A stretch of DNA of 64,000 bases from Limibacillus halophilus (GTDB taxonomy: Bacteria > Pseudomonadota > Alphaproteobacteria > Kiloniellales > CECT-8803). The translations under genes and the position numbers were made by a program. The stretch spans positions 434,001 to 498,000 of the forward strand of contig NZ_JACHXA010000001.1 of NCBI RefSeq assembly GCF_014191775.1, given 5' to 3'. Positions 38,081 through 59,285 of the stretch are shown piece by piece. Within the stretch, counting starts at the first letter, position 1; every line of letters begins with the position of its first letter. Under the pieces are notes generated by a model. It ran no database searches, was not told the origin of the DNA, and saw nothing but the letters and a program-made list of their open reading frames with translations.

Positions 38081-38113
38081 TTCTTACTCCTAATTCCGGC
38101 AGTGTGGAAACTC

Positions 38114-39343: not shown

Positions 39344-39370
39344 TTTTAGTCTCCCTAATAAGCAGGCGCG

Positions 39371-40681: not shown

Positions 40682-40696
40682 GGTGAGGCTGGCTCT

Positions 40697-41245: not shown

Positions 41246-41247
41246 GG

Positions 41248-41868: not shown

Positions 41869-41960
41869 GGAACCTCCAGACGATTAATTAGGCGAAGGGG
41901 CAGACCGGGATGCCTGAAGGAACAAGATTGTACCACAGAGGCTCCGGCCTGCCCTTTCCA

Positions 41961-43100: not shown

Positions 43101-43195
43101 AGACATAGCCTCCGTAGGGGTCAGAGAACCTGGGAAAGTCGCTTCGGCCCAAAATGTCGTTCTTCAGCCGTCGCGACCGCGGACATTTCTTATAG

Positions 43196-44261: not shown

Positions 44262-45554
44262 CTAGAATCCCAAACGGTCGCGCAGCCCGTACCAAACCAC
44301 CAGCGAGGTCACGGCCGGCTTTCGCAGACCGTAGAATGGAATTCGATTTGGTTGAGTGACCGGGAAATCCAGATCTTCGACGGCTTTGCCAGCCAAGCGT
44401 TCAGCCAGGACCTTGCCGAGCGCGGTGGCCATTGCCACGCCCCGACCGTTGAAGCCCAGCGCAGCATGCAGGCCTGGCGCCGGCTCATTCAAATGCGGGA
44501 AATGGTCCTGGGTCATGGCGACAAGTCCGCCCCAGGCATGTTCCCACTCCACCTCTCCGATTTGCGGGAACAAGCGGTGCGTCACATGCTTGAGCACGGA
44601 GAAACGGGCCCTTAGACCTGCGTCGGTAAAGCCGCCTCGACCGCCCATGAGTAAGCGCCCTGTCGCATCCAGTCTGAAATAGTTTAGGAGTCTGCGCGTG
44701 TCGCTGCTGACATGGCCTTCCGGGAAAATACTCCGCCGGACATTCTCGGAGAGCGGCTTGGTTGCGACCTGTATGGAACGGAATGGAACTACGGTTTTCG
44801 CCAAGCCGGGCCACAGGTGGTCGGTATAACCGTTGGTGCAAAGCGCCACCTGTTTGGCGCGCACTTCGCCGTGCGGAGTTTTAATCAGGAACCCCTGGCC
44901 GGTCTTTTCGAGGCTTTCGGCGGGGCTGTCGCTGTAAATGTCGACCCCAAGACTGCGGACCGCGGCGGCTAGTCCGAGCGCGTAATTAAGCGGGTGAACG
45001 GAGCCGCCTCTTCTGTCCAGCGTGCCGCCGGCGTAGGCTCCGGTGCCGATCAACCGTGCAGTCTCGGACTTGGATAGGTGCTCGATTTTGGCACCCCTAC
45101 GTTGCCACTGCTCGGCGCGGCGGGCCAACAGATCAAGCGCACTGGAATCGTGTGCCGCCTGTATCCATCCGTTGTCCTGTAGATCGCATTCGATGCCATA
45201 GCGTCGGATCAGATCGAAAACCAGGGACGGCCCCTCGCCCGATATACGTACCATCCGGCCGCCCATCTCCGGCCCGTAGAGCTTTTCTATCGTGTCGGGG
45301 TCTTCCTTGAGTCCGGGTATCACTTGCCCGCCGTTGCGGCCGGAAGCACCCCATCCAGGGGTCCGCGCTTCGATCACCACCGGCTTCAACCCGCGCTCGG
45401 CTAAGTGAAGGGCGCAAGACAGGCCGGCAAAACCTGCACCAACGATAGCTGTATCGACGGTCAGGGACTCTTCCAGATGCCGGCGTGGCAGCGCTTGGTT
45501 GGCGGTCGCTTCCCAGAGGGAATTGGCAAGAAGAGGACGCTCGCGTTCAATCAT
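44262..45554 (-). CDS. FAD-dependent amine oxidoreductase (PuuB/OrdL family)
   Basis: 430 residues. FAD-binding TAIVGAGFAGLSCALHLAERGLKPVVIEA (34-62), then GWGASGRNGGQVIPGL, the signature of gamma-glutamylputrescine oxidoreductase and related DAO-type enzymes. HAWGGLVAMTQDHFPHL and GFNGRGVAMATALGKVLA close the FAD site. It oxidises a secondary or primary amine (sarcosine, gamma-glutamylputrescine or similar) to an aldehyde or imine. It lies 53 bp behind a PuuR-like regulator and a DMT transporter in the same direction. Confidence 0.92.
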   Translation of the reverse strand: MIERERPLLANSLWEATANQALPRRHLEESLTVDTAIVGAGFAGLSCALHLAERGLKPVVIEARTPGWGASGRNGGQVIPGLKEDPDTIEKLYGPEMGGRMVRISGEGPSLVFDLIRRYGIECDLQDNGWIQAAHDSSALDLLARRAEQWQRRGAKIEHLSKSETARLIGTGAYAGGTLDRRGGSVHPLNYALGLAAAVRSLGVDIYSDSPAESLEKTGQGFLIKTPHGEVRAKQVALCTNGYTDHLWPGLAKTVVPFRSIQVATKPLSENVRRSIFPEGHVSSDTRRLLNYFRLDATGRLLMGGRGGFTDAGLRARFSVLKHVTHRLFPQIGEVEWEHAWGGLVAMTQDHFPHLNEPAPGLHAALGFNGRGVAMATALGKVLAERLAGKAVEDLDFPVTQPNRIPFYGLRKPAVTSLVVWYGLRDRLGF

Positions 45555-45607
45555 TGGTCAGGCCATCCGTTTCGGGCGTGTGTTGCTTGGGTTGCTCTCA
45601 GAGGTCA

Positions 45608-46207
45608 TCAGTAGACGGCAGGAGTCACGGTCCAGATCACTTGGCAAACTTCTTCGCCGATCGCCCAGAAGCGACATAACTGCCTGGCATCAAAAGCAAA
45701 TGCGTCCCCCGGCATAAGCTCGAACTGCTTGCCGTCAATCTCCAAACCCAGCGTACCGGAAACAACCGTCCCACACTTCGCGCCGTCTGGATTGTTATAA
45801 GGCTCTTTGCCGGAGCCGCCTTGGGGCTGGATGATGATTAGCATCATCTGTATTCCGGGGCAGGAGTCAGGCGTCATCAACTCCTTGGTCATACCCTTTT
45901 CACCCAGATCAAGAATGCGCCGATTAGCGGTGCGGACGATATAATCCGAGTCGTTCTTCTCGTCGGCCTCCTTCCCGTCGAACAGCCAGCCCATTGGCAT
46001 GTCCAATGCTTCGCAGATCTGCTTGAGGGAATGAAGCGAAGGAGCTGAAATACCGCGCTCTATATGGCTCAATTGGCCGATGGAGACGCCGCTGTTTTGT
46101 GCCACTACCGCAAGCGATAGCCCCCTGACCTTGCGGCGCAACCGCAGCTTCTGGCCAATCGAGCCGTCGATTTCCGATTTGCGCGTTCTCTTTTGCATCA
46201 AAGACAA
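45608..46207 (-). CDS. XRE-cupin transcriptional regulator (PuuR-like)
   Basis: 199 residues. An N-terminal XRE helix-turn-helix (LRLRRKVRGLSLAVVAQNSGVSIGQLSHIERGISAPSLHSLKQICEAL, about 20-67) is joined to a C-terminal cupin (GTVVSGTLGLEIDGKQFELMPGDAFAFDARQLCRFWAIG). PuuR and related regulators of amine catabolism have this layout. I take the TTG at 46205-46207 as start because GGGGAG is eight bases upstream; the ATG at 46198 is 17 bases away. It likely controls the downstream amine oxidase and the upstream exporter. Confidence 0.91.
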   Translation of the reverse strand: MSLMQKRTRKSEIDGSIGQKLRLRRKVRGLSLAVVAQNSGVSIGQLSHIERGISAPSLHSLKQICEALDMPMGWLFDGKEADEKNDSDYIVRTANRRILDLGEKGMTKELMTPDSCPGIQMMLIIIQPQGGSGKEPYNNPDGAKCGTVVSGTLGLEIDGKQFELMPGDAFAFDARQLCRFWAIGEEVCQVIWTVTPAVY

Positions 46208-46240
46208 AGGTATGACTCCCCTTCATTATTGTTGTTTTGC

Positions 46241-46249
46241 TTAGATTGA
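46241..46249. promoter_or_regulatory. TTAGATTGA element upstream of the XRE-cupin gene
   Basis: This 9-mer recurs exactly at 47484-47492 before the first hyuA gene, and a near copy (TAGATTAAA) lies at 47437-47445. All three are in short AT-rich promoter stretches around the PuuR-like regulator and its divergent neighbours. A shared regulator site is possible; the elements are short and AT-rich, so chance is not excluded. Confidence 0.3.
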
Positions 46250-46311
46250 AAAAAATACAAAAAAAATTCAACCGAAAATTTAGAATCAGACTGAAAAGAA
46301 ATCATCGGCTG

Positions 46312-47262
46312 TCAACCAGGAGTGTTGGTCTGCGGTGGCACGGCAGATCGTTGAAAGGATAGGAAGGCGCCAACCAAGATGAAAAGCGCGCTTATGAGCA
46401 GTGACGAATGAAGCGGCTCATCCAAAACAAGATTGCTCAGAAACACGCCGAAAACAGGTGAGAGGAGCAGAAACTGCCCCGCGCTTGCGGCCGATATCCT
46501 GCTGAGCGCTTGTGCCCAGCACCAGAAGCCGAAGCTGGTAGGCACGATCCAGTTGTACAATAAGATGGCTAGGTACTGCGGCGTCGGGCTAAAGGCAGTC
46601 CCTCGCTCCATGATCATGGCCAAGAGCGATACCGATACCGCTGCAACAGCCAACTGCCAGAACACCTGTTGCCAGAAGCTGCTGCGCCAGCGCCGGGTTC
46701 TGTATAGCACGGCGCCGGTGGCCCAGCCGATGGTGGCGATCAAGGCGATGGCTGAACCGAGAAAGGCATTGCCGCTATCCCAGGTCATTGTCCAGGGCTC
46801 GGTGAGCAGCACCAGACCCAATAAACCTAAGGCGCCGCCGGCAACCGCGGTCGGTGTCGTGCGCTCACCCAGCAACCAGATACTAATCAGCAGCGCCCAA
46901 ACCGGCATGGAGTAAGCGATCAAAACGGTCCTGCTTGCTTCGATCCAGAGCATGGCAATTGAGGTCAAGCCGGTCATCAAGGCGACCTGTAGAAAGCCGA
47001 TGGCGCCGAGCAAGAGCCGCTCGCCCGGCTCCGGCAGCAGGACTCTGCCCCTGCCAAGCGAAACCAGGCATAGGCCGACGATGGCTGTCGCCCCCAGAAA
47101 GCGCAGGGCGTTGAAGGTCAAGGGGCCGCTATCCTGTAGGGCCAACTTGACCCAAGTGTAGTTACCCCCCCAGGCAAAGACGAGGACGCTTAGGAACAGC
47201 AATGTGATGATCACGTATTTAGGTGTGTTCGCCGCCGTCGCTGGCGTTTGTGCTGTCGGCAT
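46312..47262 (-). CDS. DMT superfamily transporter (EamA, RhaT-like)
   Basis: 316 residues with ten predicted membrane spans in two EamA repeats (LLFLSVLVFAWGGNYTWVKLAL near 20; AGGALGLLGLVLLTEPW near 140; second repeat from 'GNAFLGSAIALIATIGWATGAVLY'). DMT proteins export metabolites or amino acids. It precedes the PuuR-like regulator on the same strand (104 bp) and is divergent from hyuA. The transported compound is unknown. Confidence 0.92.
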   Translation of the reverse strand: MPTAQTPATAANTPKYVIITLLFLSVLVFAWGGNYTWVKLALQDSGPLTFNALRFLGATAIVGLCLVSLGRGRVLLPEPGERLLLGAIGFLQVALMTGLTSIAMLWIEASRTVLIAYSMPVWALLISIWLLGERTTPTAVAGGALGLLGLVLLTEPWTMTWDSGNAFLGSAIALIATIGWATGAVLYRTRRWRSSFWQQVFWQLAVAAVSVSLLAMIMERGTAFSPTPQYLAILLYNWIVPTSFGFWCWAQALSRISAASAGQFLLLSPVFGVFLSNLVLDEPLHSSLLISALFILVGAFLSFQRSAVPPQTNTPG

Positions 47263-47483
47263 CAGGTGTGCACTCTCAATCTTTCAAGATGTCCCAAATG
47301 GAATCGACCCCGCCGCGAAAAGGCGCGTTTGTTTCCCTGATCCGATCGGTGCTCCCAGCGTCGTCTTGAGGGAGGCGGCACAGCACATTCCAGGGCATTA
47401 TTTCCTGCTCATCGTCTTTGGTGTTCGCCGCTAATGTAGATTAAAGTTTCGTTTTTGCAAAAATTTTTATAGAAAATATTCAA

Positions 47484-47492
47484 TTAGATTGA
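47484..47492. promoter_or_regulatory. TTAGATTGA element upstream of hyuA
   Basis: Second exact copy of the 9-mer at 46241-46249, placed 56 bp before the hyuA start, in the 285-bp divergent region 47263-47547 between the DMT transporter and hyuA. Apart from this, the near copy at 47437 and AT-rich promoter-like sequence, I see nothing in that region. Confidence 0.3.
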
Positions 47493-47547
47493 TAGTCGTA
47501 ATGGAACTGCATCGGCAGATCGATGAGAAAACTGGAGGAGAGTATAG

Positions 47548-49563
47548 ATGCGCGTTGGCGTCGAAGTCGGGGGAACCTTTACGGACCTGGTAGCTATCGG
47601 AAAGGAAGGAATACGTGTCGCCAAGGTGCCGAGTGTCCCTTCCCGTCCGGACGAAGGCGCCTTTAATGCGTTGCTTGCCAGCGGGCTGACGATCGCCGAG
47701 ATCGAGGATCTGGCTCACGGATCAACCGTGGCTACCAACGCTGTTCTGGAGCGTAAAGGCTTTCCGACCGCTTTCGTGACAACCGAAGGATTCCGGGACA
47801 TCCTGGCGCTGCAACGCCACAACCGCACGAGCATTTACGATCTAGAGTATCAGAAGCCCGCGCCGGTGGTTAAGCGCGCCGATTGCTTCGAAGTTTCGGA
47901 ACGTATCTTGGCTGACGGCAGCGTGCTTACTGCGTTGGACGAAGCCAAGGTGGAGACGGCATTGATTCCCGCGCTTAAGAACGGTGGTTATGAAGCTGTC
48001 GCCGTTTGCTTGCTGAATGCCTATGCGAACCCGGCACACGAGGAGCAGCTTCGATCGATCATTCAGGCGCGGCTTCCGGATTTGCACGTGACCTTGTCTT
48101 CCGCTGTGACGCGCGAGTTTCGCGAGTATGAGCGGGCATCGACGGCAGCGATTTCCGCCTATGTTCAGCCGGTGATCGACCGCTATATCGGGCGTTTCGA
48201 GGGGCGCCTTGCGGAGAATGGATTCAAAGGTCGGTTCAGTGTCATGCAGTCCAACGGCGGACGCCTGCCCGCCGAGGCCATGCGTCAAAGCGCTGTGACC
48301 GCCTTGCTTTCCGGCCCGGCCGCTGGCGTCATGGGCGCCACACGGCAAGCCAGCCGGTCCGGCTACGAGAATCTCATTACGCTGGATATCGGAGGGACTT
48401 CTACCGATGTCAGCGTCGTTACCGGCGGAAAGCCCGGCCTGACGAACGAGTTCATGATCGACGGTCTGCCGGTAAGGATTCCGGTCATCGACATCAATAC
48501 CGTCGGCGCCGGCGGCGGCAGCATTATCTGGATCGATGAAGGAGGCATGCTGCGCGCCGGACCGCAATCCGCGGGCGCCGACCCCGGCCCGGCGTGTTAC
48601 GGTCGCGGCGGTAAGTTGCCGACGATCACAGACGCACATGTCATCCGTCAGACCATGCGCCCCGAAGCTTTTCTCGGCGGTCGCATGCAGATTGACCCGG
48701 AAGCGTCGCGCGCAGTCTTCAAGCCGATTGCCGAGCACTTTGGCATGACGTTGGAGGAAGCTGCGGATAGCGCGATCCAATTGGCGAATGCGAACATCGT
48801 TCGCGCCATTCAGCTTATCTCGACCGAGCGCGGCAAGGACCCGCGTGACTATGTGATGATTCCCTATGGCGGTGCCGGGCCTTTGCACGCGGCCCAGGTG
48901 GCCCAGGATCTGGGCATCCGCACCATTGTCGTACCGCCCAATGCAGGTGTCATGTCGGCCTACGGCCTGATCGCCTCCGATTTTGTTCAGTTTGAGAGCA
49001 TGACCCACCGTGCCGTCGTCGATGTTGGGGCCGGCGACCTGGTGCGCGGCATTTTCAAGGAAATGAAGGATCGGGCGCTGACGCGCTTCCACGAACTGGG
49101 GCTAGATAGCAATCTTCGACTGGATTTCATCGCGGATATGCGTTTCGTCGGCCAGGCCTTTGAGGTGCCTGTTGCCTTGAGCGAGGCGGAGGTGGCCAAG
49201 CTGGACGGCGCCGCAATTCAGCGGCTTTTCGGCACCGCTCACGAGAAGATCTATTTCTTTGGCGCCAGCTCGGATAAGCCGATCGAGTTTGTGTCCTTCC
49301 GATTGGGTATTTCCGCCGAGTTGGCGGATCTGCCGGTGCTGGTCGAGACCGGTGATTACAGTGTCGAAGCCAGTGAGATCGAACTCTTTGATCAACGCCA
49401 GAAGTGGCAGGGCACCCTGATGAGCCGCAGCCAGATCGGCGATGGGCAAATCTTGACAGGGCCGATGCTGCTGGAGGATTCGACCTCTACTTTATTCGTG
49501 CCTGCCGGCTGGAGCGCGGCGCAGGACGAGAACCACAATTTGATTCTGACGAGGGCCGAATAA
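47548..49563 (+). CDS. hyuA: Hydantoinase/oxoprolinase subunit A (HyuA family), first copy
   Basis: 671 residues, full length. The ASKHA-type nucleotide fold shows VGVEVGGTFTDLVAIG (3-18), HGSTVATNAVLERKG (52-66), LDIGGTSTDVSVV (about 280) and GAGGGSIIWIDEGGMLRAGPQSAGADPGPACYG. Together with HyuB it hydrolyses a cyclic amide (5-oxoproline, N-methylhydantoin, hydantoin) or carboxylates acetone-like ketones, with ATP. GGAGGAG eight bases upstream marks a strong start. It is first in a hyuA-hyuB-hyuA-hyuB-dctQ-dctM-nitrilase operon. Confidence 0.94.
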   Translation: MRVGVEVGGTFTDLVAIGKEGIRVAKVPSVPSRPDEGAFNALLASGLTIAEIEDLAHGSTVATNAVLERKGFPTAFVTTEGFRDILALQRHNRTSIYDLEYQKPAPVVKRADCFEVSERILADGSVLTALDEAKVETALIPALKNGGYEAVAVCLLNAYANPAHEEQLRSIIQARLPDLHVTLSSAVTREFREYERASTAAISAYVQPVIDRYIGRFEGRLAENGFKGRFSVMQSNGGRLPAEAMRQSAVTALLSGPAAGVMGATRQASRSGYENLITLDIGGTSTDVSVVTGGKPGLTNEFMIDGLPVRIPVIDINTVGAGGGSIIWIDEGGMLRAGPQSAGADPGPACYGRGGKLPTITDAHVIRQTMRPEAFLGGRMQIDPEASRAVFKPIAEHFGMTLEEAADSAIQLANANIVRAIQLISTERGKDPRDYVMIPYGGAGPLHAAQVAQDLGIRTIVVPPNAGVMSAYGLIASDFVQFESMTHRAVVDVGAGDLVRGIFKEMKDRALTRFHELGLDSNLRLDFIADMRFVGQAFEVPVALSEAEVAKLDGAAIQRLFGTAHEKIYFFGASSDKPIEFVSFRLGISAELADLPVLVETGDYSVEASEIELFDQRQKWQGTLMSRSQIGDGQILTGPMLLEDSTSTLFVPAGWSAAQDENHNLILTRAE

Positions 49564-51263
49564 TGCCGGAAGCAAATACAAGGACCGATATCATGAGCAC
49601 ATTAGACCCAGTTGACTATGCGGTCATCAGCCAAGGTTTGATCGCGGCGGCCCGTGAAATGGGCGCCAAGTTGATCCGCTCGGCATACTCCACCATCGTC
49701 CGAGAGGCCTCCGACGCTTCCGCCGCACTCCTGGACAGAGATGGGAACGTTGTTGCCCAAGCGGAACTCATCCCGATGCAACTCGGTCCGATGGCCGACA
49801 CCTTCCGCGCTTGTGCGGCGCTCTATCCGGTCGATGAGCTTGTTGAAGGCGATTTCTACATCAACAACGATCCCTTCGCAGGTGGTCAGCATCTACAGGA
49901 CGTATTCATTTATTCGCCGATCTTTGTCGACGGGAAGGTAATCGGATTTGCCGGCACAGTTGCTCACCACCTTGACCTTGGCGGTGGCAACCCCGGCCTG
50001 ACCACGGCCGCAGCGGACGTTCATGCCGAAGGCTTTATCTTTCCGCCATCCAAGTACAACCTGAAGCGGGATTGGTACGGTGGGCCGTTGGAGCGTCTGG
50101 TGGCCGCGAATATTCGCGTGCCCGCCCAGACCATCGGCGACTTCAACGCGCAGTTCGCCGCCAACGCGATCGGCGGTCAGCGCGTCACGCAGATCTGTGA
50201 GAAATATGGAGTGGATTCGGTCACTGCGGTCATGACCGAACTGATGGACTACTCGGAGCGCCGATTCCGTGCTGCGCTGATCGAAATTCCGGACGGTACT
50301 TATTATGGCGAAGACGCCTTGGACGATGACGGCCTGACCGACAAGCCGCTTGAGGTCAAGGCAACCCTTGTTGTTAAGGGCGACACCATCAGTGTCGACT
50401 TTGCCGGTAGCTGCCCGCAGGTGACCCGTAATCTGAACTGCCCGTTCTCTTCTACGGTTTCCTCAACACTCAGTGCCATTAAATCGGTTCTGACCAGTCC
50501 TGACATTCCCTTCAATGAGGGTGTAAAGCGGCCGATCAGCATCACGGCGCCAAAGGGCTCCCTGCTGAACCCCAACTACCCGGCGCCGGTGCGCGCCCGC
50601 ATGGAAGCCGGATATCGTTGCTTCAATGCCGTGATGAAGGCTTTGGCACAGATCGTGCCGGACCGGGTCATTGCGGGTGGGAACGATACGACAACAGTCA
50701 CCTCGATCTCGCATTTGGACGAGGGCAAGTACCGCGTCTATCTGGAAGTGTTTGGCGGCGGCTACGGCGCGTCATTAAATACGGACGGCTGTGATGCCGT
50801 CGATGCTCCGCTTTCCAATTGCGCCAATACGCCGATTGAGGCGACGGATATGGACTTCTCCCATTTTCGGATTGTCGGTTATGGCTTGCTGCCGGATTCT
50901 TGCGGCCATGGCCGCCATCGCGGCGGCCTCGGCTTTTACCGTCGTTATGAAATCCTCAAGGACGACGTCAATTTTGCGATCTATGCCGATCGATTCCGCC
51001 TGTCTCCCTATGGTCTGTTTGGCGGCACCGATGGAGAGGTCGCGCGTTGTGAGGTGGAGCGGGGCGGTGAGATCATTTCGGTGAAAAGCAAGGACATGCT
51101 GGATCTCCGCAAGGGCGATATTCTGACCCTTTATACCGCGGGCGGGGCAGGTTATGGCCCGGTCGGCGAACGGCCAAGCGAGGCCGTTCGGAGGGATGTC
51201 GAGCATGGCTATATCACGCCGGAGACCGCCAAGTCGGTCTATGGTTTTGAAGCGGCGGAGTGA
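49563..51263 (+). CDS. hyuB: Hydantoinase/oxoprolinase subunit B (HyuB family), first copy
   Basis: 566 residues. The ATG at 49563 overlaps the hyuA stop (TAATG); an internal ATG at 49593 has its own AAGGA and is an alternative. Family segments: LDPVDYAVISQGLIAAAREMGAKLIRSAYS, EASDASAALLDRDGNVVAQAELIP, INNDPFAGGQHLQDVFIYSPIF, HHLDLGGGNPG, and YTAGGAGYGPVGERP at the end. It supplies the hydrolytic metal site for HyuA. Substrate cannot be read off. Confidence 0.94.
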   Translation: MPEANTRTDIMSTLDPVDYAVISQGLIAAAREMGAKLIRSAYSTIVREASDASAALLDRDGNVVAQAELIPMQLGPMADTFRACAALYPVDELVEGDFYINNDPFAGGQHLQDVFIYSPIFVDGKVIGFAGTVAHHLDLGGGNPGLTTAAADVHAEGFIFPPSKYNLKRDWYGGPLERLVAANIRVPAQTIGDFNAQFAANAIGGQRVTQICEKYGVDSVTAVMTELMDYSERRFRAALIEIPDGTYYGEDALDDDGLTDKPLEVKATLVVKGDTISVDFAGSCPQVTRNLNCPFSSTVSSTLSAIKSVLTSPDIPFNEGVKRPISITAPKGSLLNPNYPAPVRARMEAGYRCFNAVMKALAQIVPDRVIAGGNDTTTVTSISHLDEGKYRVYLEVFGGGYGASLNTDGCDAVDAPLSNCANTPIEATDMDFSHFRIVGYGLLPDSCGHGRHRGGLGFYRRYEILKDDVNFAIYADRFRLSPYGLFGGTDGEVARCEVERGGEIISVKSKDMLDLRKGDILTLYTAGGAGYGPVGERPSEAVRRDVEHGYITPETAKSVYGFEAAE

Positions 51264-51269
51264 AGTAGC

Positions 51270-53327
51270 ATGGCAACGGATGAGCGTGAGGTTAGCCTTG
51301 GCATCGATATTGGGGGAACCTTCACCGATATCGTTTGTGTGACAGACGACGGACCGAAAATTTTCAAGGTTCCTTCGACACGGTCCAACCCAAGCATCGC
51401 CGTCAGAAACGCTATCGCGCAGCTCAAAGACGAGCATGGGGTTGCGCCTGATAGCATCACCCGTTTTGCCCACGGCACGACGGTGGCGACCAACGCTGTG
51501 CTGGAGCGCAAGGGTGCCAGGATCGGCATCATCGCAACGCGCGGTTTCAAGGATGTGCTCGAGATCGGACGCCAGATGCGGCGGGAGATGTATGACCTGA
51601 AGCTAAGGTCGCAGACTCCTGCTTGGCTAGCGCCAGGCGCTCGGCGTGTTGAAGTCGATGAGCGTGTATCCGCGGATGGCTCGGTCGTTACAGCGCTTTC
51701 CATGGATAGCGTCCGTCTCGCCGTTGATGAATTGCTGGAACAGAAAGTCGAGGCCATCGCCGTAACGCTGCTGTTTTCATTCTTGAATCCGGCTCATGAG
51801 CGCGCGATTGCGGCCTACATTGCCGAGGTGGCACCTGATCTGCCGGTTTCGTTGTCCTCTGAAGTAGATCCGGCCTTCCGAGAGTACGAACGTACGGTCG
51901 TTACGGCTTTCGACAGCTATGTGAAGCCGGTCGTCGATCGCTACCTGCGGGAAATGGAGGAATCGCTTGCGGCCTCTGGGATGCCTGCGCCATTGCAGAT
52001 CATGCAGTCGCGTGGTGGACTTGCGATCTCTTCCGTTGCACGGCTTCGTCCGGTGAGGCTGTTCCTCTCCGGTCCCGCTGGTGGCGTGATTGGCGGACTT
52101 TCCGAATCCGCCCAAGCAGGCATTGATAAAATTATCACGATCGATGTTGGTGGCACCTCCAGCGATATTGCCTTGGTTGACGGCGGTGAGGCGCTTGTAC
52201 GTTCGGAAACGTCGATAGCTGGATATAGTGTACGCGTACCTATGGTTGATATTGAAACCTTGGGGGCCGGCGGCGGCAGTCTTGTCTGGTTGGATTCCGC
52301 GAAGGGTATGCGCGTTGGGCCGGAATCCGCTGGTGCAGAACCGGGCCCCGTCTGTTATGGCCGGGGCGGTACGCAGCCGACCGTGACGGATGCATCAATT
52401 GTTCTGGGCTATCTCGATCCCGGCTATTTTGCTGGCGGCACGTTGCGGCTCGATCCGGCATTGGCGGAGGACGCCATCCGCAGGGAAGTGGCCGAGCCAA
52501 TGGGGTTCTCGGTGCCGGAAGCGGCTCTTGGCATCCATCGGATAGCCAACGCTCAGATGGCCGAAGGCATTCGTCTGGTGTCTTTGAACAGAGGCTTGGA
52601 CCCACGCGAGTTCGTGCTGGTTCCTCTGGGTGGTGCAGGCGCTCTCCATGCGGTGCCGCTGGCGGAGGAGCTTGGTATTCGGCGCGTTCTAGTGCCTCGC
52701 TATCCGGGCGTCCTTTCCGCGGCGGGTTTGTTGGCAGCGCCCATCGAGCATGAGGTTGCCGCCGCTTATCCGATGCCCTTGAACGACGCCATTACGGACG
52801 ACCTTGCGAAGTTTCTTTCGACACTGGACGCCCAGGCGGGGGACCTTATGGCCGCCGAGAACCTGTCCGGCCTGAAGGTTGAGACCCGTTACTCCGCCGA
52901 TGTTTGCTACATGGGCCAAAGTTCAACATTGGAGGTGGTGTTGGACCTGTCCGGCACCGATCCCATCGGGGCATTGTACAAGCGCTTCGAGGAAACCCAC
53001 CGCCGCATCTTTGGTCACGCCACGGGCGCGCCTGCAAGGATCGTCAATCTGAGGACCGTCCATCGGGCGCAGCTCGCGCCGCCCAATCTGACGGCGCGGG
53101 CGAATGGTGCTGCCAAGCAAGCGCATAAGGGATCGCGACTCGCTTGGTTCGAGGGCCTTTCTTCAGCGGTGGAGACAGCGGTTTACGATCGCGATGGCCT
53201 GACGTCGGGCGAGCGTTTCGAAGGTCCGGCCATTGTCGAGCAGTCGGATACCACGACCCTTGTGCCGCCCGGTTGGCAGGCCCTGGTCGTCGAGGGAAAT
53301 TCTCTGCTCATCGAGCGCAAGGAGTAA
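51270..53327 (+). CDS. hyuA: Hydantoinase/oxoprolinase subunit A (HyuA family), second copy
   Basis: 685 residues. The same motifs appear in diverged form: GIDIGGTFTDIVCV (11-24), HGTTVATNAVLERKGARIGIIATRGFKDVLEIGRQMR, TIDVGGTSSDIALVDGGE, ETLGAGGGSLVWLD. The sequence differs widely from the first copy, so this is an old duplication or an independent acquisition, with perhaps a second substrate or stereochemistry. It starts six bases after the first hyuB stop and overlaps the next gene region. Confidence 0.94.
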   Translation: MATDEREVSLGIDIGGTFTDIVCVTDDGPKIFKVPSTRSNPSIAVRNAIAQLKDEHGVAPDSITRFAHGTTVATNAVLERKGARIGIIATRGFKDVLEIGRQMRREMYDLKLRSQTPAWLAPGARRVEVDERVSADGSVVTALSMDSVRLAVDELLEQKVEAIAVTLLFSFLNPAHERAIAAYIAEVAPDLPVSLSSEVDPAFREYERTVVTAFDSYVKPVVDRYLREMEESLAASGMPAPLQIMQSRGGLAISSVARLRPVRLFLSGPAGGVIGGLSESAQAGIDKIITIDVGGTSSDIALVDGGEALVRSETSIAGYSVRVPMVDIETLGAGGGSLVWLDSAKGMRVGPESAGAEPGPVCYGRGGTQPTVTDASIVLGYLDPGYFAGGTLRLDPALAEDAIRREVAEPMGFSVPEAALGIHRIANAQMAEGIRLVSLNRGLDPREFVLVPLGGAGALHAVPLAEELGIRRVLVPRYPGVLSAAGLLAAPIEHEVAAAYPMPLNDAITDDLAKFLSTLDAQAGDLMAAENLSGLKVETRYSADVCYMGQSSTLEVVLDLSGTDPIGALYKRFEETHRRIFGHATGAPARIVNLRTVHRAQLAPPNLTARANGAAKQAHKGSRLAWFEGLSSAVETAVYDRDGLTSGERFEGPAIVEQSDTTTLVPPGWQALVVEGNSLLIERKE

Positions 53328-53332
53328 TGAAG

Positions 53333-55030
53333 ATGGTTTCGAAAACAGTTGGTGGCGTCGATCCGATTACGTTGGAAGTCGTTCGAAACAAGCTGGACGG
53401 AATCGCCCAGGAAATGGAGGTCACGCTCTTCAAGAGTTCTTGTTCCCCCATTGTCAAGGAAGGGCTGGACGCCTCAGCATCGCTTTTCATGCTGGACGGC
53501 ACGACGCTTTCACAGGCTTGTGCCGTGCCAATCCACCTGGGCACACTGATACCGGCGGTCGCCGAGATCATTCGGAAGTTCCCTCCCGAGACCATGACCG
53601 ACGGCGATATTTACCTGCTGAACGATCCCTACCATGGGGGTACGCATCTACCCGATATCGCGGTCGTGATGCCAATTTTCGCCAACGGCCGACCGGTGGC
53701 GTTGGCGGCTACCATGACCCATCACCAGGACGTCGGCGGAATGAGCGCCGGATCGGTGCCCACGAACTCTACTGAGATTTACCAGGAAGGCCTGCGGTTG
53801 CCCGCTGTTCGTTGGGCGCACGGTGGCGTATTCGACGAAACACTGACAGCCTTGCTGCGGCTGAATGTCCGGATTCCGGATATCTTCCTGGGAGATTTAC
53901 ATGCTCAGATTGCGGCCTGCAAGATCGGTGCATTACGCCTCGCGGGATTGGTGGACAAGCATGGCAACAACGCCTGTTTGACGATGTTCCAGTTGCTGAT
54001 CGAGCGCGCCGAAGCCATGACCCGCGATGCCTTGAAGAAAATTCCGAACGGCACCTACCGCTTCACCGATTGGTTGGATAATGACGGAATCGATCTGGAC
54101 AAACGGGTTCGCGTCGAAGTCGCGGTCACTCTTGCGGACGGCGATATCCATTTCGACCTGACGGGCAGCAGCCCGCAGGTGCGCGGTCCGATCAACTGCG
54201 TACCCTCGGGCAGCCTGGCCGCTGCCTGCTATGCGGTACGGGCCGTTACCGACCCGTCGATCCCCAACAATGGCGGGTGTTTCAAGCCCATCCGTCTCAC
54301 TTTGCCAGAGGGTACATTAGTCAATCCGAAGTCGCCGGCGCCGGTAAATGCGCGGACCGCGACAATCAAGCGGATCACCGGCTGCATGCTTTCGGCGCTT
54401 GCCGAGGCGCTGCCCGGCAAAGTTCCCGCCCCCAACGCGGGTCAGTTGCTTGTCATGGCTTTTGGTGGTGCGCGGCGCTCGGGCGAGGCCTTCGTGACTG
54501 GGGAGTTGATCGCGGGCGGTAGTGGCGCCGGTAACGATCTGGATGGTGTCGATGCGATAGAGACTGACGCAACGAACTGTATGAATCTGCCTGCCGAAGC
54601 CATGGAGATGGAGGCGCCTTTGCGCATCAACAGGGTTGCGTTGCGCCGGGATTCCGGCGGCGCCGGGTCTTCGCGCGGGGGCCTTGGTGTGATCAAGGAG
54701 TTCGAGATTCTCGACGATGTAAGTGGGCCGGTGTCTTTCTCCCACCGTGGCGAGCGCCATTTCGTTCCGGCCGGCGGACTTAACGGTGGCAAGGAAGGCG
54801 GGGTCGCCAGGTCCCGGATTTTCAGGGTCGACGGCGCAGTTGAGGAGATTCGCTCCAAGACCGTAACACAACTTCACCGGGGCGATCGTCTGGTGGTCGA
54901 AACTGCAGGTGGAGGTGGATGGGGCGAGCCTGAAAAGCGTGCCAACTCAGCCATTGCATCGGACATTGCAAACGGTAAGGTGTCGCCCGAATCGGCCGCC
55001 GAATCCTACGGCTGGAACGGCGGATCATAA
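53333..55030 (+). CDS. hyuB: Hydantoinase/oxoprolinase subunit B (HyuB family), second copy
   Basis: 565 residues. Two ATGs, 53327 (overlapping the hyuA stop) and 53333, compete; AAGGAG is eight bases from the second and only two from the first, so I chose 53333. Family segments: VDPITLEVVRNKLDGIAQEMEVTLFKSSCSPIVKEGLDASASLF, LNDPYHGGTHLPDIAVVMPIF, HHQDVGGMSAGSVPTNSTEIYQEGLRLP, and VETAGGGGWGEP. It pairs with the second HyuA. The 'SSCSP' segment replaces 'RSAYS' of the first copy, typical of a separate HyuB clade. Confidence 0.94.
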   Translation: MVSKTVGGVDPITLEVVRNKLDGIAQEMEVTLFKSSCSPIVKEGLDASASLFMLDGTTLSQACAVPIHLGTLIPAVAEIIRKFPPETMTDGDIYLLNDPYHGGTHLPDIAVVMPIFANGRPVALAATMTHHQDVGGMSAGSVPTNSTEIYQEGLRLPAVRWAHGGVFDETLTALLRLNVRIPDIFLGDLHAQIAACKIGALRLAGLVDKHGNNACLTMFQLLIERAEAMTRDALKKIPNGTYRFTDWLDNDGIDLDKRVRVEVAVTLADGDIHFDLTGSSPQVRGPINCVPSGSLAAACYAVRAVTDPSIPNNGGCFKPIRLTLPEGTLVNPKSPAPVNARTATIKRITGCMLSALAEALPGKVPAPNAGQLLVMAFGGARRSGEAFVTGELIAGGSGAGNDLDGVDAIETDATNCMNLPAEAMEMEAPLRINRVALRRDSGGAGSSRGGLGVIKEFEILDDVSGPVSFSHRGERHFVPAGGLNGGKEGGVARSRIFRVDGAVEEIRSKTVTQLHRGDRLVVETAGGGGWGEPEKRANSAIASDIANGKVSPESAAESYGWNGGS

Positions 55031-55048
55031 GAGTTCTAGGGGAGAGAA

Positions 55049-55651
55049 GTGGAACAACGATCTAGCGAGACGGCGGCAAACCACGCCTCGGCGGCGGAGC
55101 GTTTCATCAGCTCCTTCGCGAAGGGCCTGACTGTCGTGGGCGGCATCAGCCTTGTGCTGATGATGGTCCAAATGGTGCTCGATGTGTTTATGAGTAACGT
55201 TTTTCATGCACCTATCGAGAGCAACCTGGAGGTGGTCTCAATTTACTACATGGTTGCGGTGGTTTTCTTGCCCCTGGCCATTGTGGAGTTACGGCACGAG
55301 CACATCCAGGTAGATCTTTTTGTTCGATTGCTACCTAAATTGGCGCAGCGGGGGCTCTATATCATGGGCAACCTGATTAGTGCCGTGTTCTTCGGAATTC
55401 TGGCCTATCAGACATGGCTCGACGCCGTTAAGTCCTTTCGCATACAGGAAATGGTGATGGGGGTCGATTTCATCGAAATCTGGCCGTCCAAATTCATCCT
55501 GCCGATCAGTTTCGCAGTCATTCTGATGGCGATCCTTCTCCACGCTTGGAAAGCATTGAGGCAGCCGGACTTCGACCCGACGCCGAGTGCACCAACATCT
55601 TTGGAAGAACAGGATTCGGCTCAGCCGGCCCAGGGGCAGAAGCATGGATAA
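55049..55651 (+). CDS. dctQ: TRAP transporter small permease (DctQ family)
   Basis: 200 residues from a GTG at 55049 with GGGGAGAGAA directly upstream. Four predicted spans: VGGISLVLMMVQMVLDVFM, EVVSIYYMVAVVFLPLAIVEL, YIMGNLISAVFFGILAY and FILPISFAVILMAILL. Paralogous to the DctQ at 40697. It is co-transcribed with the hyu genes, 18 bp after the second hyuB stop, so the transporter very probably imports the Hyu substrate. Confidence 0.93.
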   Translation: MEQRSSETAANHASAAERFISSFAKGLTVVGGISLVLMMVQMVLDVFMSNVFHAPIESNLEVVSIYYMVAVVFLPLAIVELRHEHIQVDLFVRLLPKLAQRGLYIMGNLISAVFFGILAYQTWLDAVKSFRIQEMVMGVDFIEIWPSKFILPISFAVILMAILLHAWKALRQPDFDPTPSAPTSLEEQDSAQPAQGQKHG

Positions 55652-56951
55652 TGTACTGATCGGTTTCATTGGGCTGGCCGCCGGACTGGTCCTCATTGGA
55701 CTGAGGATTCAGATTGGCGTGGCCGTCGGTTTTGTATCCTTCATCGGCATTGGCGTGATCCTGAATATGAAAGCTGCGTGGGGCATGCTGACGGCAGTCC
55801 CCTTCAACTTCGTCGGCGACTGGAACCTGACGGCAATCCCGATGTTCCTGCTGATGGGCTACGTGGCGTCTTCGTCGGGCCTGACACAGGGTTTGTTCAA
55901 GGCGATGCGGATCTTTCTGTCGCGCTTGCCCGGTGGCTTGGCGGTTGCCAGTGTAGGCGCTTGTGCGCTGATGTCGGCGGCTTCCGGCTCCAGTGTTGCC
56001 ACGGCCTCTTCTATGGCGCGAATCGCAACACCGGAAATGCTGCGGTATCGCTATAATCCGGGCCTTGCGACAGGCGTGGTCGCTACCGCCGGTACCTTGG
56101 GCTCCTTGATTCCGCCAAGTATTCTGATGGTGCTATACGGCTATTATGCCGAGGTCTCCATCTCTCAGTTGTTCATTGCCGGTATTGTCCCCGGCTTGCT
56201 TTCGGCGGTGATGCTGTCCCTGATGATCATCACCCGGGTCAAGATCAATCCGGAGCTGGCGCCACGGGTTGAGGAGGTCTTTTCTGCGCAGGAAAAGTGG
56301 GATGCCCTAAAAGAGGTTTGGCCCCTTCCTGTGCTTGTGCTGGGTGTGCTCGTCGGTATCTTCATCGGGCTATTCACGCCGACGGAAGCAGGCGCTGTTG
56401 GCGCGTTCCTGGCGATCGTCCTGGCAGCCGTCCGTCGGACCCTTTCCTGGCCGGTGCTCAAGGACGCGATTCTCAGCACCCTTTCGAGTACTGCTGGCAT
56501 CTTCATGGTCGTGATCGGCACCGTTCTGCTGGGCAAGTTTATGGCTCTGAGCGGCGTACCTACCTTCATCGCGAAAGAGCTACTGATGTTCGGCGGCGAC
56601 GAGTTGACCGTGATCATCATGGTTACCGTGCTCTACCTGGCCCTTGGCATGTTCCTGGACTCCATCGGTATACTGCTGTTGACGCTGCCGATTATCTTGC
56701 CGGTTGCACGTGAAGCCGGAATCGACTTCATCTGGTTTGGCATCATCCTTATAAAGCTGCTCGAAATCGGGCTTATCACGCCCCCCGTAGGGCTCAATGT
56801 TTACGTGATGAAGGCCGCCCTTGGCAGTATCGTAAGCCTGCAGGAGATTTTCCGGGGCGTTACCTGGTTCGTCATAATCGAGATCGTAACCCTTGCGATT
56901 ATCGTGGCATTCCCGCTGCTATCGCTCTGGTTGCCCGCATTGATGCAGTAA
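55644..56951 (+). CDS. dctM: TRAP transporter large permease (DctM family)
   Basis: 435 residues from the ATG at 55644, inside the last codons of dctQ (eight-base overlap). About 12 spans; AASGSSVATASSMARIATPEM, GTLGSLIPPSILMVLYG and KLLEIGLITPPVGLNVYVMKAALG are near-identical to the copy at 39371. Its cognate binding protein is encoded at 57898, beyond the nitrilase and on the opposite strand. Confidence 0.95.
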   Translation: MDNVLIGFIGLAAGLVLIGLRIQIGVAVGFVSFIGIGVILNMKAAWGMLTAVPFNFVGDWNLTAIPMFLLMGYVASSSGLTQGLFKAMRIFLSRLPGGLAVASVGACALMSAASGSSVATASSMARIATPEMLRYRYNPGLATGVVATAGTLGSLIPPSILMVLYGYYAEVSISQLFIAGIVPGLLSAVMLSLMIITRVKINPELAPRVEEVFSAQEKWDALKEVWPLPVLVLGVLVGIFIGLFTPTEAGAVGAFLAIVLAAVRRTLSWPVLKDAILSTLSSTAGIFMVVIGTVLLGKFMALSGVPTFIAKELLMFGGDELTVIIMVTVLYLALGMFLDSIGILLLTLPIILPVAREAGIDFIWFGIILIKLLEIGLITPPVGLNVYVMKAALGSIVSLQEIFRGVTWFVIIEIVTLAIIVAFPLLSLWLPALMQ

Positions 56952-56965
56952 GGAGTTGAAGATTT

Positions 56966-57820
56966 ATGCCCAGTCAATCTGATCGGCTTGTCGTTTCGGC
57001 CATTCAGATCACCGCAGTGGACGGTGAAAAGGACGCTACGGTTGAGAAGATGCTCAACTTGATCGACCAAGCGGGGGAGCGGGGAACGCGCCTTTGTGTC
57101 CTGCCGGAACTATGGACTGGCCTTGGGTTCTCCGATGCGACGGTTTACCGGTCGATCGCCGAGCCAATTCCGGGTCCCGTGACCAACTTGCTGGCGGAAA
57201 AAGCCAAGAAGTACGGCATGTATATCGGTGGATCGCTTTATGAGGAGGCGGCCGACGGGCGTTACCACAACAGCCTGCCGCTTATCGATCCGCAGGGTTT
57301 GATCGTCGGCACCTATCGGAAAACGCATCTGTTCGACGCACCCAACCGGACTGACATTCCTCCGGGCATCCGCGAATCCGATAAGATTACCGCCGGCGAT
57401 TGTCTTGACGTGCTTCAAACGGACGTGGGTCGCGTTGGCCTTTCCGTCTGCTCTGATCTGCGTTTCCCGGAGATCTACCGGGAGATGGCGCTCCAGGGGA
57501 CCGATATCATGGTTTGTGCGTCTGCATTCCTCAGCCCGCGTTACGATCACTGGGAGTTCTTCCTGCGCGCTCGTGCGACCGAGAACCAGTGCTTTGTCGT
57601 GGCTTCGGGACAGTATGGCGTGGAGCCCAAATCCGGGCTGGCATTTGTCGGGCGGAGTATGATCGTGGACCCTTGGGGGACCGTCGTGGCAACGGCATCC
57701 GATACGGAGTGTTGCGTAACCGCGGAGATCGACTTGTCGTTCATCGAGGAAGTGCGCCGCCGCTATCCTTTGCTGGATCAACGCCGTCCGGCGCTTTATC
57801 GGACCCTCCGAGGTTCCTGA
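56966..57820 (+). CDS. Carbon-nitrogen hydrolase (nitrilase superfamily)
   Basis: 284 residues. Catalytic triad Glu48 (LPELW), Lys119 (YRKTHLFD) and Cys162 (SVCSDLRFPE). TYRKTHLFDAPN and GDCLDVLQTDVGRVGLSVCSDLRFPEIYREMA suggest the omega-amidase/predicted amidase or N-carbamoyl amino acid hydrolase branches rather than true nitrilases. As last gene of the hyu-TRAP operon it could cleave the N-carbamoyl or amide product of HyuAB ring opening (inference). It ends at a strong bidirectional terminator. Confidence 0.92.
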   Translation: MPSQSDRLVVSAIQITAVDGEKDATVEKMLNLIDQAGERGTRLCVLPELWTGLGFSDATVYRSIAEPIPGPVTNLLAEKAKKYGMYIGGSLYEEAADGRYHNSLPLIDPQGLIVGTYRKTHLFDAPNRTDIPPGIRESDKITAGDCLDVLQTDVGRVGLSVCSDLRFPEIYREMALQGTDIMVCASAFLSPRYDHWEFFLRARATENQCFVVASGQYGVEPKSGLAFVGRSMIVDPWGTVVATASDTECCVTAEIDLSFIEEVRRRYPLLDQRRPALYRTLRGS

Positions 57821-57842
57821 GATCGGATGGAATACCGTAGAA

Positions 57843-57873
57843 AAAAGGGCCTCTCCATCGGAGAGGCCCTTTT
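57843..57873. terminator. Bidirectional intrinsic terminator
   Basis: AAAAGGGCCTCTCC (57843-57856) pairs perfectly over 14 bases with GGAGAGGCCCTTTT (57860-57873), three-base loop. The plus strand continues CTTTC after TTTT, and the minus strand has six T's, so it ends both the rightward hyu-TRAP-nitrilase operon and the leftward dctP gene. Confidence 0.93.
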
Positions 57874-57897
57874 CTTTCGTCTGTCTTCAGACCGAAC

Positions 57898-59031
57898 TCA
57901 GTTGCCGTAGGAAGCGGCGTCGATCCGGCTGTAAAGATTGTCTTTCAGAACCTTCTTGAGCGCGGCGGCATCCGCCCGGTCAATGCCATCGAGCAAGCCT
58001 TCCCACTTGGTCAACGTTGCCTCGAAGCGAGCTACCAGACCCTCGGGATCAGGAACGTTGAAGCGCTCCGTACCTTCCTTGATAGCCGTGGCCCGGACGA
58101 TATTCGCGGCAAACTCGTTCGTCGCCGCCAGATCTTCGGCCGAGGCTTGAGTGACTGTCACGCCATGCGACGGCGCTTCAGCCAACGCCTCTTCGGCCGC
58201 GTTAACGTAGCCGATCATCGTGTCGACCAAGGTGTCGGAAATGGTGTCCAGGATGATGCGGCGCTGACCGGCTTCCAAATCGCCCCAGAAATCCTTGTTG
58301 AAGGCGTATTCCCAACCGGCGAAATAGACACCGAGGGGAATGTTATAGGTGTACTTCGCAACGTCCCAAAGAGACCGGCTCTTCAGATCATTGGCTGCGT
58401 TGGAGGCGCAATCCAGTTGTCCACGCTCCAGGCCGGTGAACATCTCCGAAGAGGGGACGCTGACCGGAACGGCGCCGATGCTGCGTGCCCATTCAGCATG
58501 CACCGGTCCGGGCATGCGGATTTTCAGGCCCTTCATGTCATCCAGGCTTTTGACTTCCTTGGCACACATGATGGTGTACTGCGGCGTCGCATAGCCGCCG
58601 GCAAAGACAATGCCAAGAGAATCGAAGCGGGCTTTCATCTCCGGATCGTTCATGAAGAAATCCGTCACTGCGAAGGAAGACGTCATGATGTCGCGCAGCC
58701 CGAAGCCAAGGATCGAAAGCGTATTGTCCTCGGGCAGGTCGGTCGGTGTGTAGGTGCCAGCGTGGTAGGTCAGATGCGCAATGCCATCCTGCAGACCGCT
58801 CAGATGCGCGTTAGGCGGCAGCAATGCGGTGCCGGTAAACAGGTTAACCTTGATGTCGCCATTCGAGGCGGCCTCAAGCGTTTTGGCCCACTCAACGTAG
58901 CCGTACTTGGTCAAGGGGTGCGTATCCGGGAACCAGATGCTCGCATTGATTTCGGTGGCTGCCTGTGCGCCGGTCGTCATTGCCAGGGCAGCGGCCAGCC
59001 CCATCCCTGCCGCGCGGATATTAAATTTCAT
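57898..59031 (-). CDS. dctP: TRAP transporter substrate-binding protein (DctP family)
   Basis: 377 residues, signal peptide GMGLAAALAMTTGAQA (cleaved near residue 24), GGGAG six bases before the ATG. Close paralogue of the binding protein at 41961: TKYGYVEWAKTLEAAS, PSSEMFTGLERGQLDCASNAANDL and SRSLWDVAKYT. It is convergent with the operon that carries its likely permeases, so binding protein and permease are expressed from separate promoters. The region 59032-59285 upstream holds its promoter (AT-rich, no clear operator seen). Confidence 0.94.
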   Translation of the reverse strand: MKFNIRAAGMGLAAALAMTTGAQAATEINASIWFPDTHPLTKYGYVEWAKTLEAASNGDIKVNLFTGTALLPPNAHLSGLQDGIAHLTYHAGTYTPTDLPEDNTLSILGFGLRDIMTSSFAVTDFFMNDPEMKARFDSLGIVFAGGYATPQYTIMCAKEVKSLDDMKGLKIRMPGPVHAEWARSIGAVPVSVPSSEMFTGLERGQLDCASNAANDLKSRSLWDVAKYTYNIPLGVYFAGWEYAFNKDFWGDLEAGQRRIILDTISDTLVDTMIGYVNAAEEALAEAPSHGVTVTQASAEDLAATNEFAANIVRATAIKEGTERFNVPDPEGLVARFEATLTKWEGLLDGIDRADAAALKKVLKDNLYSRIDAASYGN

Positions 59032-59285
59032 AGCCTTCTCCCATCCATGAATTCTCAGAGTATGTTCTGCGGCGGGCGATGCTGTCGCCGCGGCCGGAAC
59101 ACGAGCATTCAGTCTAAGGATGCTTTTTATTTATTCAACAAAAATGAAAAAAATGTCACAATTTTTAACCCATGTTAGCAATTATCCCCGTTGTTCTACA
59201 GTGAACTTGATTTTCTAACCACCTATGAGAAGAAAAAAGCGCAGCGGGAATCACGCCGAGGTGTTAATAACCCGGCCGTGGTCAG

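Follow-up and report, generated by a model that had tools for sequence, protein, structure and literature searches.

A seven-gene operon of Limibacillus halophilus with two diverged HyuAB pairs, a TRAP transporter and a nitrilase-family amidase, and its possible role in cyclic-amide catabolism

Genes of HyuAB type are common, yet the family is described as having few characterized members (PMC5214803). We analyzed a stretch of 64,000 nucleotides from Limibacillus halophilus (contig NZ_JACHXA010000001.1, positions 434,001 to 498,000; hereafter the window), in which a reading of the sequence alone had noted two hyuA-hyuB pairs in tandem, followed by genes for a tripartite ATP-independent periplasmic (TRAP) transporter and an amidase. 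Open reading frames (ORFs) and domain checks confirm that this operon is real, with the gene order hyuA1-hyuB1-hyuA2-hyuB2-dctQ-dctM-amidase, all on the plus strand (Table 1). The tight spacing and single terminator of the sequence-only reading are likewise borne out, and the terminator is a strong one. The successive junctions are -4, +6, -4, +18, -8 and +14 bp, taking as starts of hyuB1 and hyuB2 the ATG codons at 49560 and 53324, which lie inside longer ORFs from 49404 and 53144. A promoter scan of positions 46500 to 60500, in which 5.2 promoter-like sites would be expected, returned two, each of them on the minus strand, and gave no sign of an internal promoter within the operon. The hairpin behind the amidase gene could serve the operon and the convergent dctP alike.

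Table 1. Features of the HyuAB locus, with positions counted from the first nucleotide of the window.
Feature	Position	Strand	Evidence
HyuA1, 671 aa, ATP-binding subunit, Glu-motif clade (EVGGTFTD, Glu6)	47548..49563	+	Pfam Hydantoinase_A 313 bits; tree, motif counts
HyuB1, 567 aa, metal-site subunit, Asp52/His111/Asp114/His136	49560..51263	+	Pfam Hydantoinase_B 526 bits; CapB alignment
HyuA2, 685 aa, ATP-binding subunit, canonical DIGGTFTD	51270..53327	+	Pfam 315 bits; own A2 clade
HyuB2, 568 aa, metal-site subunit, quartet intact	53324..55030	+	Pfam 574 bits; CapB alignment
DctQ, small TRAP permease subunit	55049..55651	+	Pfam DctQ 74.7 bits
DctM, large TRAP permease subunit	55644..56951	+	Pfam DctM 282 bits; TIGR00786 above cut-off
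Nitrilase-superfamily amidase, 284 aa, triad Glu48-Lys119-Cys162	56966..57820	+	Pfam CN_hydrolase 202.6 bits; triad aligned to Nit2
Putative bidirectional terminator, amidase / convergent dctP	57843..57873	.	14-pair stem, 3-base loop, A/T runs on both sides
DctP, TRAP solute-binding protein	57898..59031	-	Pfam DctP 103 bits; placement in relatives L084, L140, L149
EamA/DMT-family transporter, divergent from hyuA1	46312..47262	-	Pfam EamA; kept in G007, G008, G009, L085, G116
XRE/cupin (PuuR-like) regulator	45608..46201	-	HTH_3 and Cupin_2; PuuR model 68 bits, under cut-off of 211
FAD-dependent DAO-family amine/amino-acid oxidase	44262..45554	-	Pfam DAO 254 bits; AmaA pipecolate oxidase model 347 bits, under cut-off of 600

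The layout recurs in relatives, for which we picked the ORFs ourselves, so that gene calls there may contain errors. The complete A1-B1-A2-B2-dctQ-dctM-amidase order with a convergent dctP is repeated in Fodinicurvata fenggangensis (L083; G007/L067) and a Fodinicurvata congener (G008, L068), and a Hyphomicrobiaceae metagenome-assembled genome (L087) has the full set with a DAO homolog and an XRE homolog (31%) upstream. A short contig (G130, L211) carries B1-A2-B2, with no readable A1, and ends soon after. Contiguous A1B1-A2B2 genes thus occur in six genomes including the window (G130 without a readable A1), and the amidase gene is present in four of the five operons with a readable end. This conserved gene order argues that the operon layout is not due to chance.

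Each HyuAB enzyme is encoded by two genes in the order A-B with a 4 bp overlap, with no gene between the pairs and no gamma subunit; gene order, lack of a gamma subunit and B subunits of 567 and 568 residues agree with the features given for the hydrolase (HydAB) branch in PMC5214803. Aligned to CapB of caprolactamase, both B1 and B2 have a complete Asp-His-Asp-His metal quartet. B1 homologs were recovered at 76 of the 80 A1 loci from the scan described below; all 76 keep the first three ligands and 74 keep the second His (the other two are not aligned there), and all four ligands are present in 18 of 18 B2 homologs. A2 carries all three ASKHA ATP motifs (DxGGTxTD, DxGGT and GxxPGP); A1 carries the second and third, and its first reads EVGGTFTD, with Glu6 for Asp. 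Mutants of D11 or D295 in CapA and of the CapB quartet are reported to lose most or all activity (PMC8453981). These features suggest that A1B1 and A2B2 are probably ATP-dependent cyclic-amide hydrolases.

It is very unlikely that the four subunits form one heteromeric machine resembling acetophenone carboxylase (Apc), in which bicarbonate would be activated by one HyuA and the substrate by the second. Apc does use two HyuA-like subunits, one of them a proposed bicarbonate kinase (PMC5214803), and Glu6 hints at a possible difference in ATP use between A1 and A2. However, Apc has the gene order alpha'-gamma-alpha-beta, with one beta subunit and a small gamma, whereas here each HyuA has its own complete HyuB with no gamma between, and some genomes have one pair but not the other.

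As the sequence-only reading held, the two sets differ strongly, with 37% identity between A1 and A2 and 35% between B1 and B2. In a 71-row tree, the A1-type (21 rows) and A2-type (12 rows) proteins each form one branch with a support of 100 in the Shimodaira-Hasegawa-like approximate likelihood ratio test (SH-aLRT); the A2 members of the operon form their own subclade (SH-aLRT 97), neither type joins CapA, and the AcxA and ApcC references fall outside both branches on long branches. Approximately unbiased (AU) tests, run on 38 of the 71 rows with a simpler model and three PDB references (four in the 71-row tree), reject a clade of the N-methylhydantoinase 7hk5 with A1 (p = 0.0004) or with A2 (p = 0.022). 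A1B1 and A2B2 are distinct, well-supported clades, and neither is seen inside a characterized one. The outcome that the sequence-only reading had named as contrary to it, both sets in a single characterized clade, was not seen, though the AU tests leave a joint A1 and A2 clade and sisterhood with CapA unrejected. A2 could be a remote sister lineage of caprolactamase.

Strong divergence also bears on redundancy, that is, on both pairs being 5-oxoprolinases for pyroglutamate salvage. Family relationship and gamma-glutamyltransferase homologs in five of 83 A1 loci (of two types, one below its model cut-off) would fit, but we regard this explanation as highly improbable. Besides the distance between A1 and A2, CapB-type pocket positions differ between B1 and B2: Cys410-Cys411 corresponds to Ser-Cys in B1 and Ala-Thr in B2. 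Leu38 of CapB is Glu in both, and Tyr136 is also replaced. The genome also has two further ORFs with a HyuA domain, of 1,227 and 1,221 aa; they are long enough for a fused A-B enzyme, the architecture described for eukaryotic oxoprolinases (PMC11033972), which makes plain 5-oxoproline a less likely substrate of the operon.

The Asp-to-Glu change in A1 is widespread within its clade. In the alignment behind the 71-row tree, 25 rows have Glu as the motif-1 residue, 45 have Asp and one has a gap; the 25 Glu rows form one supported branch (SH-aLRT 97). A whole-protein search with A1, covering near relatives only (E <= 1e-150), found Glu6 in 27 of 28 loci, with one unreadable; this is a fairer count than the 79 of 79 readable loci of the GTDB scan described below, whose pattern MRVG[VI]EVG includes the Glu and is not independent of it. 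The conserved Glu6 is notable, since the D11A exchange at the same place in CapA is reported to leave 0.05% conversion in 19 h (PMC8453981). We tentatively raise the possibility that the Glu-motif HyuA clade is a functionally distinct branch of the ATP-dependent lactamases with altered phosphoryl or carboxyphosphate chemistry, which with A2B2 would make up, in alphaproteobacteria and also in some betaproteobacteria, an undescribed pathway for a natural cyclic amide such as an N-substituted lactam acid or the two enantiomers of such an acid.

With Pfam matches for DctP, DctQ and DctM, the TRAP transporter is complete. The DctP that the sequence-only reading placed at 57898 is present, but on the minus strand and convergent with the operon; in L084, L140 and L149, dctP adjoins A1B1-dctQ-dctM or the order is P-Q-M. 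We transferred no ligand to DctP by homology, as its best PDB match scores only 72 bits. The unit as first read, the seven genes, stood but missed the divergent DMT transporter, XRE/cupin regulator and DAO oxidase; the conserved unit reaches upstream through these genes, from 47262 down to 44262. In F. fenggangensis, the XRE and DMT genes are separated by an inserted gene for an isochorismatase-family hydrolase (L083, 8032-8673), whose best models, RutB and biuret amidohydrolase, are both below their cut-offs.

A perfect palindrome, TCAAT-TAG-ATTGA, lies upstream of hyuA1 at 47480-47492 and is a candidate XRE operator, though one that lacks clear conservation in relatives. The exact form TCAAT-N3-ATTGA has a single copy, at 47480; with up to one mismatch there are four in the window against 1.6 expected, a number reached by six of 100 shuffles, and we do not claim the operator. 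Those 8-mers that are common to the upstream regions are mostly AT-rich and weak.

To see how often each pair occurs, and with what, we used the A1 alignment to scan GTDB genomes. Of 549 confirmed stretches, the best 80, a set that leans to near relatives, gave 83 A1 loci together with L069, L070 and L255; L070 and L113 are apparently one contig, 27 of the 83 loci span less than 19 kb, and Reyranella is named in 12 of the 80 titles. B1 is present in 77 of these 83. Within the flanks covered, the commonest partners found for the A1-type pair are DAO (20 loci) and XRE (21), which occur together in 16; DctM is found in 15, an old-yellow-enzyme reductase in 11 and the amidase in six. A labelled transporter is present in 24 of the 25 loci with DAO or XRE, either TRAP or an ATP-binding cassette (ABC) system whose binding proteins are of the branched-chain-amino-acid or the peptide type. 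A B2 homolog of Paraburkholderia LEh10 (L132) lies about 3.6 kb past the DAO gene of an A1B1 cluster.

The distribution of B2 was followed in 385 genomes of the class at >= 55% identity, with at most three candidates per genome for HyuA and HyuB and six for the amidase. Fourteen other genomes have B2 (in two pieces in G130, partial in G349). Eight of these also have an A1-type HyuA (P = 2.3e-7, a value that ignores kinship and follows cut-offs set after the hits were seen; the A1 set omits G263, at 46% identity). The remaining six have no A1 hit: G130 has B1 beside A2, and G181, G186, G284, G349 and G426 have neither A1 nor B1 beside A2. Conversely, 17 of the 25 class genomes with an A1-type HyuA have no B2 at this threshold. 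A2B2 stands with other TRAP genes in L199, L201 and L203, whose genomes have A1 elsewhere, adjoins a DAO homolog in L200 (38%) and L207 (36%), and lies near an XRE homolog in L201, L207 and L212. In G116 a single cluster of about 24 kb holds both modules, each in an operon of its own: DMT-XRE / A1-B1-amidase, P-Q-M, then DAO, XRE and DAO-A2-B2-B2. The last of these (L207, 6775-12262) has A2 followed by two tandem B2 homologs (55% and 57%), that is, one HyuA and two HyuB. Because each pair can occur without the other, and because G116 keeps both modules as separate operons, we infer that parallel substrates sharing one transporter are more likely than an obligatory series.

The amidase keeps its catalytic triad and matches the CN_hydrolase fold model (Table 1). 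Its best PDB scores are 143 bits for Nit2, 109 for N-carbamoylputrescine amidohydrolase and 83 for D-carbamoylase; it scores 153.4 bits against the NCBIfam model of deaminated glutathione (dGSH) amidase, and membership of that family was rejected because the curated cut-off is 355. At >= 65% identity it is found in eight of 384 class genomes (its own excluded), seven of them among the 25 with A1 (P = 1.6e-8), and at >= 47% in 14, seven of them with A1 (P = 5.3e-6); these P values ignore kinship, and the identity cut-offs were chosen after the hits were seen. The amidase also occurs with no HyuAB nearby, and four genomes of the same order (G019-G022) have it at 72-73% identity and have no A1-type HyuA.

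Several other settings of the amidase were observed. In G019-G021 (L071-L073), orthologs share the stretch with a DMSO-reductase-like molybdoenzyme (model-checked in G020/L072 only), and L071 also holds, by models, a fumarase/tartrate dehydratase alpha subunit and a fumarate-reductase-like flavoprotein; this is perhaps another role of the same amidase. A conserved cluster in G415, G245 and G338 (L257-L259) places the amidase beside a thiamine-pyrophosphate (TPP) enzyme, an Fe-S protein and a class IV aminotransferase, the TPP enzyme of G415 scoring over the PRK06154 cut-off. A 49% homolog adjoins a gamma-glutamyltransferase in G429, and one of 39% in Thermomicrobium roseum lies about 2.6 kb from a HyuAB pair. 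Distant homologs were dropped as support for linkage, because two archaeal stretches show no HyuAB.

The amidase would be central to a hydantoin route, in which HyuAB would yield an N-carbamoyl amino acid, the nitrilase-family enzyme would act as carbamoylase and DAO would oxidize the (N-methyl or D-) amino acid; an example would be a route by way of N-methylhydantoin and sarcosine. In the PDB, A1 matches best a chain that bears the name N-methylhydantoinase (437 bits); a Paroceanicella N-carbamoyl-D-amino-acid hydrolase lies one gene from a DAO homolog, and HyuAB and TRAP genes are near sarcosine oxidase genes in Paracoccus ferrooxidans. We nevertheless find this route rather unlikely: the order of the amidase scores, with Nit2 first and D-carbamoylase last, runs against it, as does the rejected clade of A1 with 7hk5, and the genes at 44262-59031 include neither a hydantoin racemase nor an M20 carbamoylase.

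We favor, at slightly better than an even chance, the view that the locus is an island for the catabolism of related cyclic amides, with A1B1 and A2B2 working in parallel, one TRAP transporter serving both and DAO acting on the freed amine. The DctP-DctQ-DctM transporter would import cyclic amides (lactams or hydantoin-like rings, probably carboxylated), and the two pairs would open related rings, either two related compounds or two stereoisomers. HyuA would use ATP to form an activated (phospho- or carboxy-) intermediate, to be hydrolyzed by HyuB at its metal site; the divergent DAO would oxidize the freed amine, the amidase would remove an open-chain amide group if present, and the XRE/cupin protein would regulate the locus. 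The substrate class, step order, parallel use and regulation in this scheme are predictions from sequence comparison.

Several observations weigh against the island with parallel ring opening. DAO is divergent from the hyuAB genes, not in their transcript, and none was found in the available stretch of G009; that genome has A1B1-A2B2-dctQ-dctM with a convergent dctP, DMT and XRE genes but no amidase gene. At the thresholds used, 58 of the 83 A1 loci have neither DAO nor XRE, so many A1B1 pairs may work otherwise. Glu6 replaces an Asp that is essential in CapA, and ATP use by A1 is correspondingly a prediction. The AU tests do not reject, among deep relations, A1 with A2 (p = 0.056), A1 with CapA (p = 0.147) or A2 with CapA (p = 0.664), the tree constrained to this last grouping being slightly better; as CapA sisterhood is unrejected, these values weaken any claim that CapA is no relative of A1 and A2. 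Of the five B2 genomes with neither A1 nor B1, three are less than 90% complete and two at least 90%, and the co-occurrence of A1 and B2 above expectation also fits a serial pathway.

In such a series, a single imported compound would have two different rings, or two cyclic intermediates arising one after the other, opened by A1B1 and A2B2, and its breakdown would be finished by the amidase and DAO. Tight packing of seven genes with one transporter speaks for it, as do the contiguous pairs in six genomes and the separate A2 subclade of the operon. We consider it doubtful, since the 17 of 25 A1 genomes with no B2, and five of 14 B2 genomes with neither A1 nor B1 beside A2, indicate that neither pair needs the product of the other, and the operon of G009 shows that the amidase is dispensable. 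The amidase as finisher of an obligatory series, proposed in the sequence-only reading, is accordingly not upheld by G009 or by its presence elsewhere with no HyuAB nearby.

On the favored reading of parallel ring opening, the locus would combine known enzyme types in a new way, with two HyuAB clades and one conserved active-site change. By coupling these clades with a transporter, an oxidase, an amidase and a regulator, it offers a route to naming both substrates, and the Glu conserved in place of an Asp that caprolactamase cannot do without is a natural test of ATP use in the family. If new lactams are indeed opened, the enzymes would be of interest for lactam bioremediation and nylon-monomer work.

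Two further loci in the window were observed. A second TRAP locus at 37436-43106 on the minus strand encodes a DctM (39371) and a DctP (41961) that are 55% and 39% identical to those of the operon, together with an isochorismatase-family hydrolase, a TetR-like gene and an Xaa-Pro-dipeptidase-like amidohydrolase (245 bits, under the cut-off of 500). A 73% homolog of the latter lies beside another HyuAB-TRAP locus in G008 (L076), for which reason the second locus may be a sister pathway for cyclic amides or dipeptides. Farther away, a proline-racemase-family gene (33173-34204, minus strand) overlaps by 6 bp a gene for a 2-oxoglutarate-Fe(II) oxygenase (32339-33178, plus strand) related to halogenase models (HalD 50 bits, above cut-off; WelO5 below cut-off).

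Open-literature searches, with subscription papers mostly outside their scope, found no described pathway with a two-pair HyuAB operon, TRAP transporter and amidase, in line with the sequence-only reading, which had recognized none. Compared by layout and gene labels, the closest described system is the nmp cluster (nmpABCDEF of Alicycliphilus BQ1 and Paracoccus), which reportedly opens a ring and then oxidizes the freed amine. Both systems link a HyuAB pair to an amine/amino-acid oxidase, here the DAO. Unlike the present locus, the nmp cluster reportedly has one HyuAB pair instead of two, in line with the gene names of a published table, and is listed with a succinate-semialdehyde dehydrogenase gene, nmpF, with no counterpart among the genes at 44262-59031. 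Published descriptions give nmpA and nmpB as HyuAB-type and nmpC as "aminoacid oxidase" (PMC6987047), and report that deletion of nmpB abolishes N-methylpyrrolidone degradation (PMC12866759). Contiguous genes for HyuA, HyuB and an FAD oxidase, as in the nmp gene set, are also found on a plasmid of Variovorax SRS16 (L166); this and the P. ferrooxidans HyuAB-TRAP genes, likewise on a plasmid, indicate that HyuAB with a TRAP transporter is not in itself unusual.

Among enzymes, CapAB of Pseudomonas jessenii (PDB 6yra) and OplAB of P. putida share the two-subunit architecture of ATP-dependent lactam hydrolases and the Asp-His-Asp-His quartet; lactam opening by OplAB is described with ATP and bicarbonate (PMC11033972). 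Motifs DxGGT and GxxPGP of these enzymes are present in both HyuAs, and DxGGTxTD only in A2, A1 having Glu. Unlike CapAB, the pairs score 480.5 and 572.5 bits (A1, A2) and 255.6 and 290.5 bits (B1, B2) against the NCBIfam models, with a cut-off of 1000 each, and lack the vicinal Cys pair, with Tyr136 and Leu38 also replaced; membership of the caprolactamase family was rejected on these scores. In P. jessenii, capB is reported to precede capA (PMC8453981). The 7hk5 N-methylhydantoinase, a fused chain of 1288 aa, is the best PDB match of A1, B1 and B2 and the second best of A2, but A and B are unfused here and the AU tests place both A1 and A2 apart from it. Acetone carboxylase (Acx) and Apc are members of the same superfamily, with kinase subunits resembling HyuA and metal subunits resembling HyuB; Apc has two of the HyuA-like kind. 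Unlike them, the operon has no gamma gene, another gene order and shorter B subunits; gene order, the lack of a gamma gene and tree position led us to reject a carboxylase reading. Finally, Nit2/omega-amidase is the closest PDB sequence, and dGSH amidase the closest NCBIfam model, to the amidase, and the Glu-Lys-Cys triad is shared; in contrast to dGSH amidase, whose cut-off lies far above its score, the amidase described here is linked to HyuAB operons.

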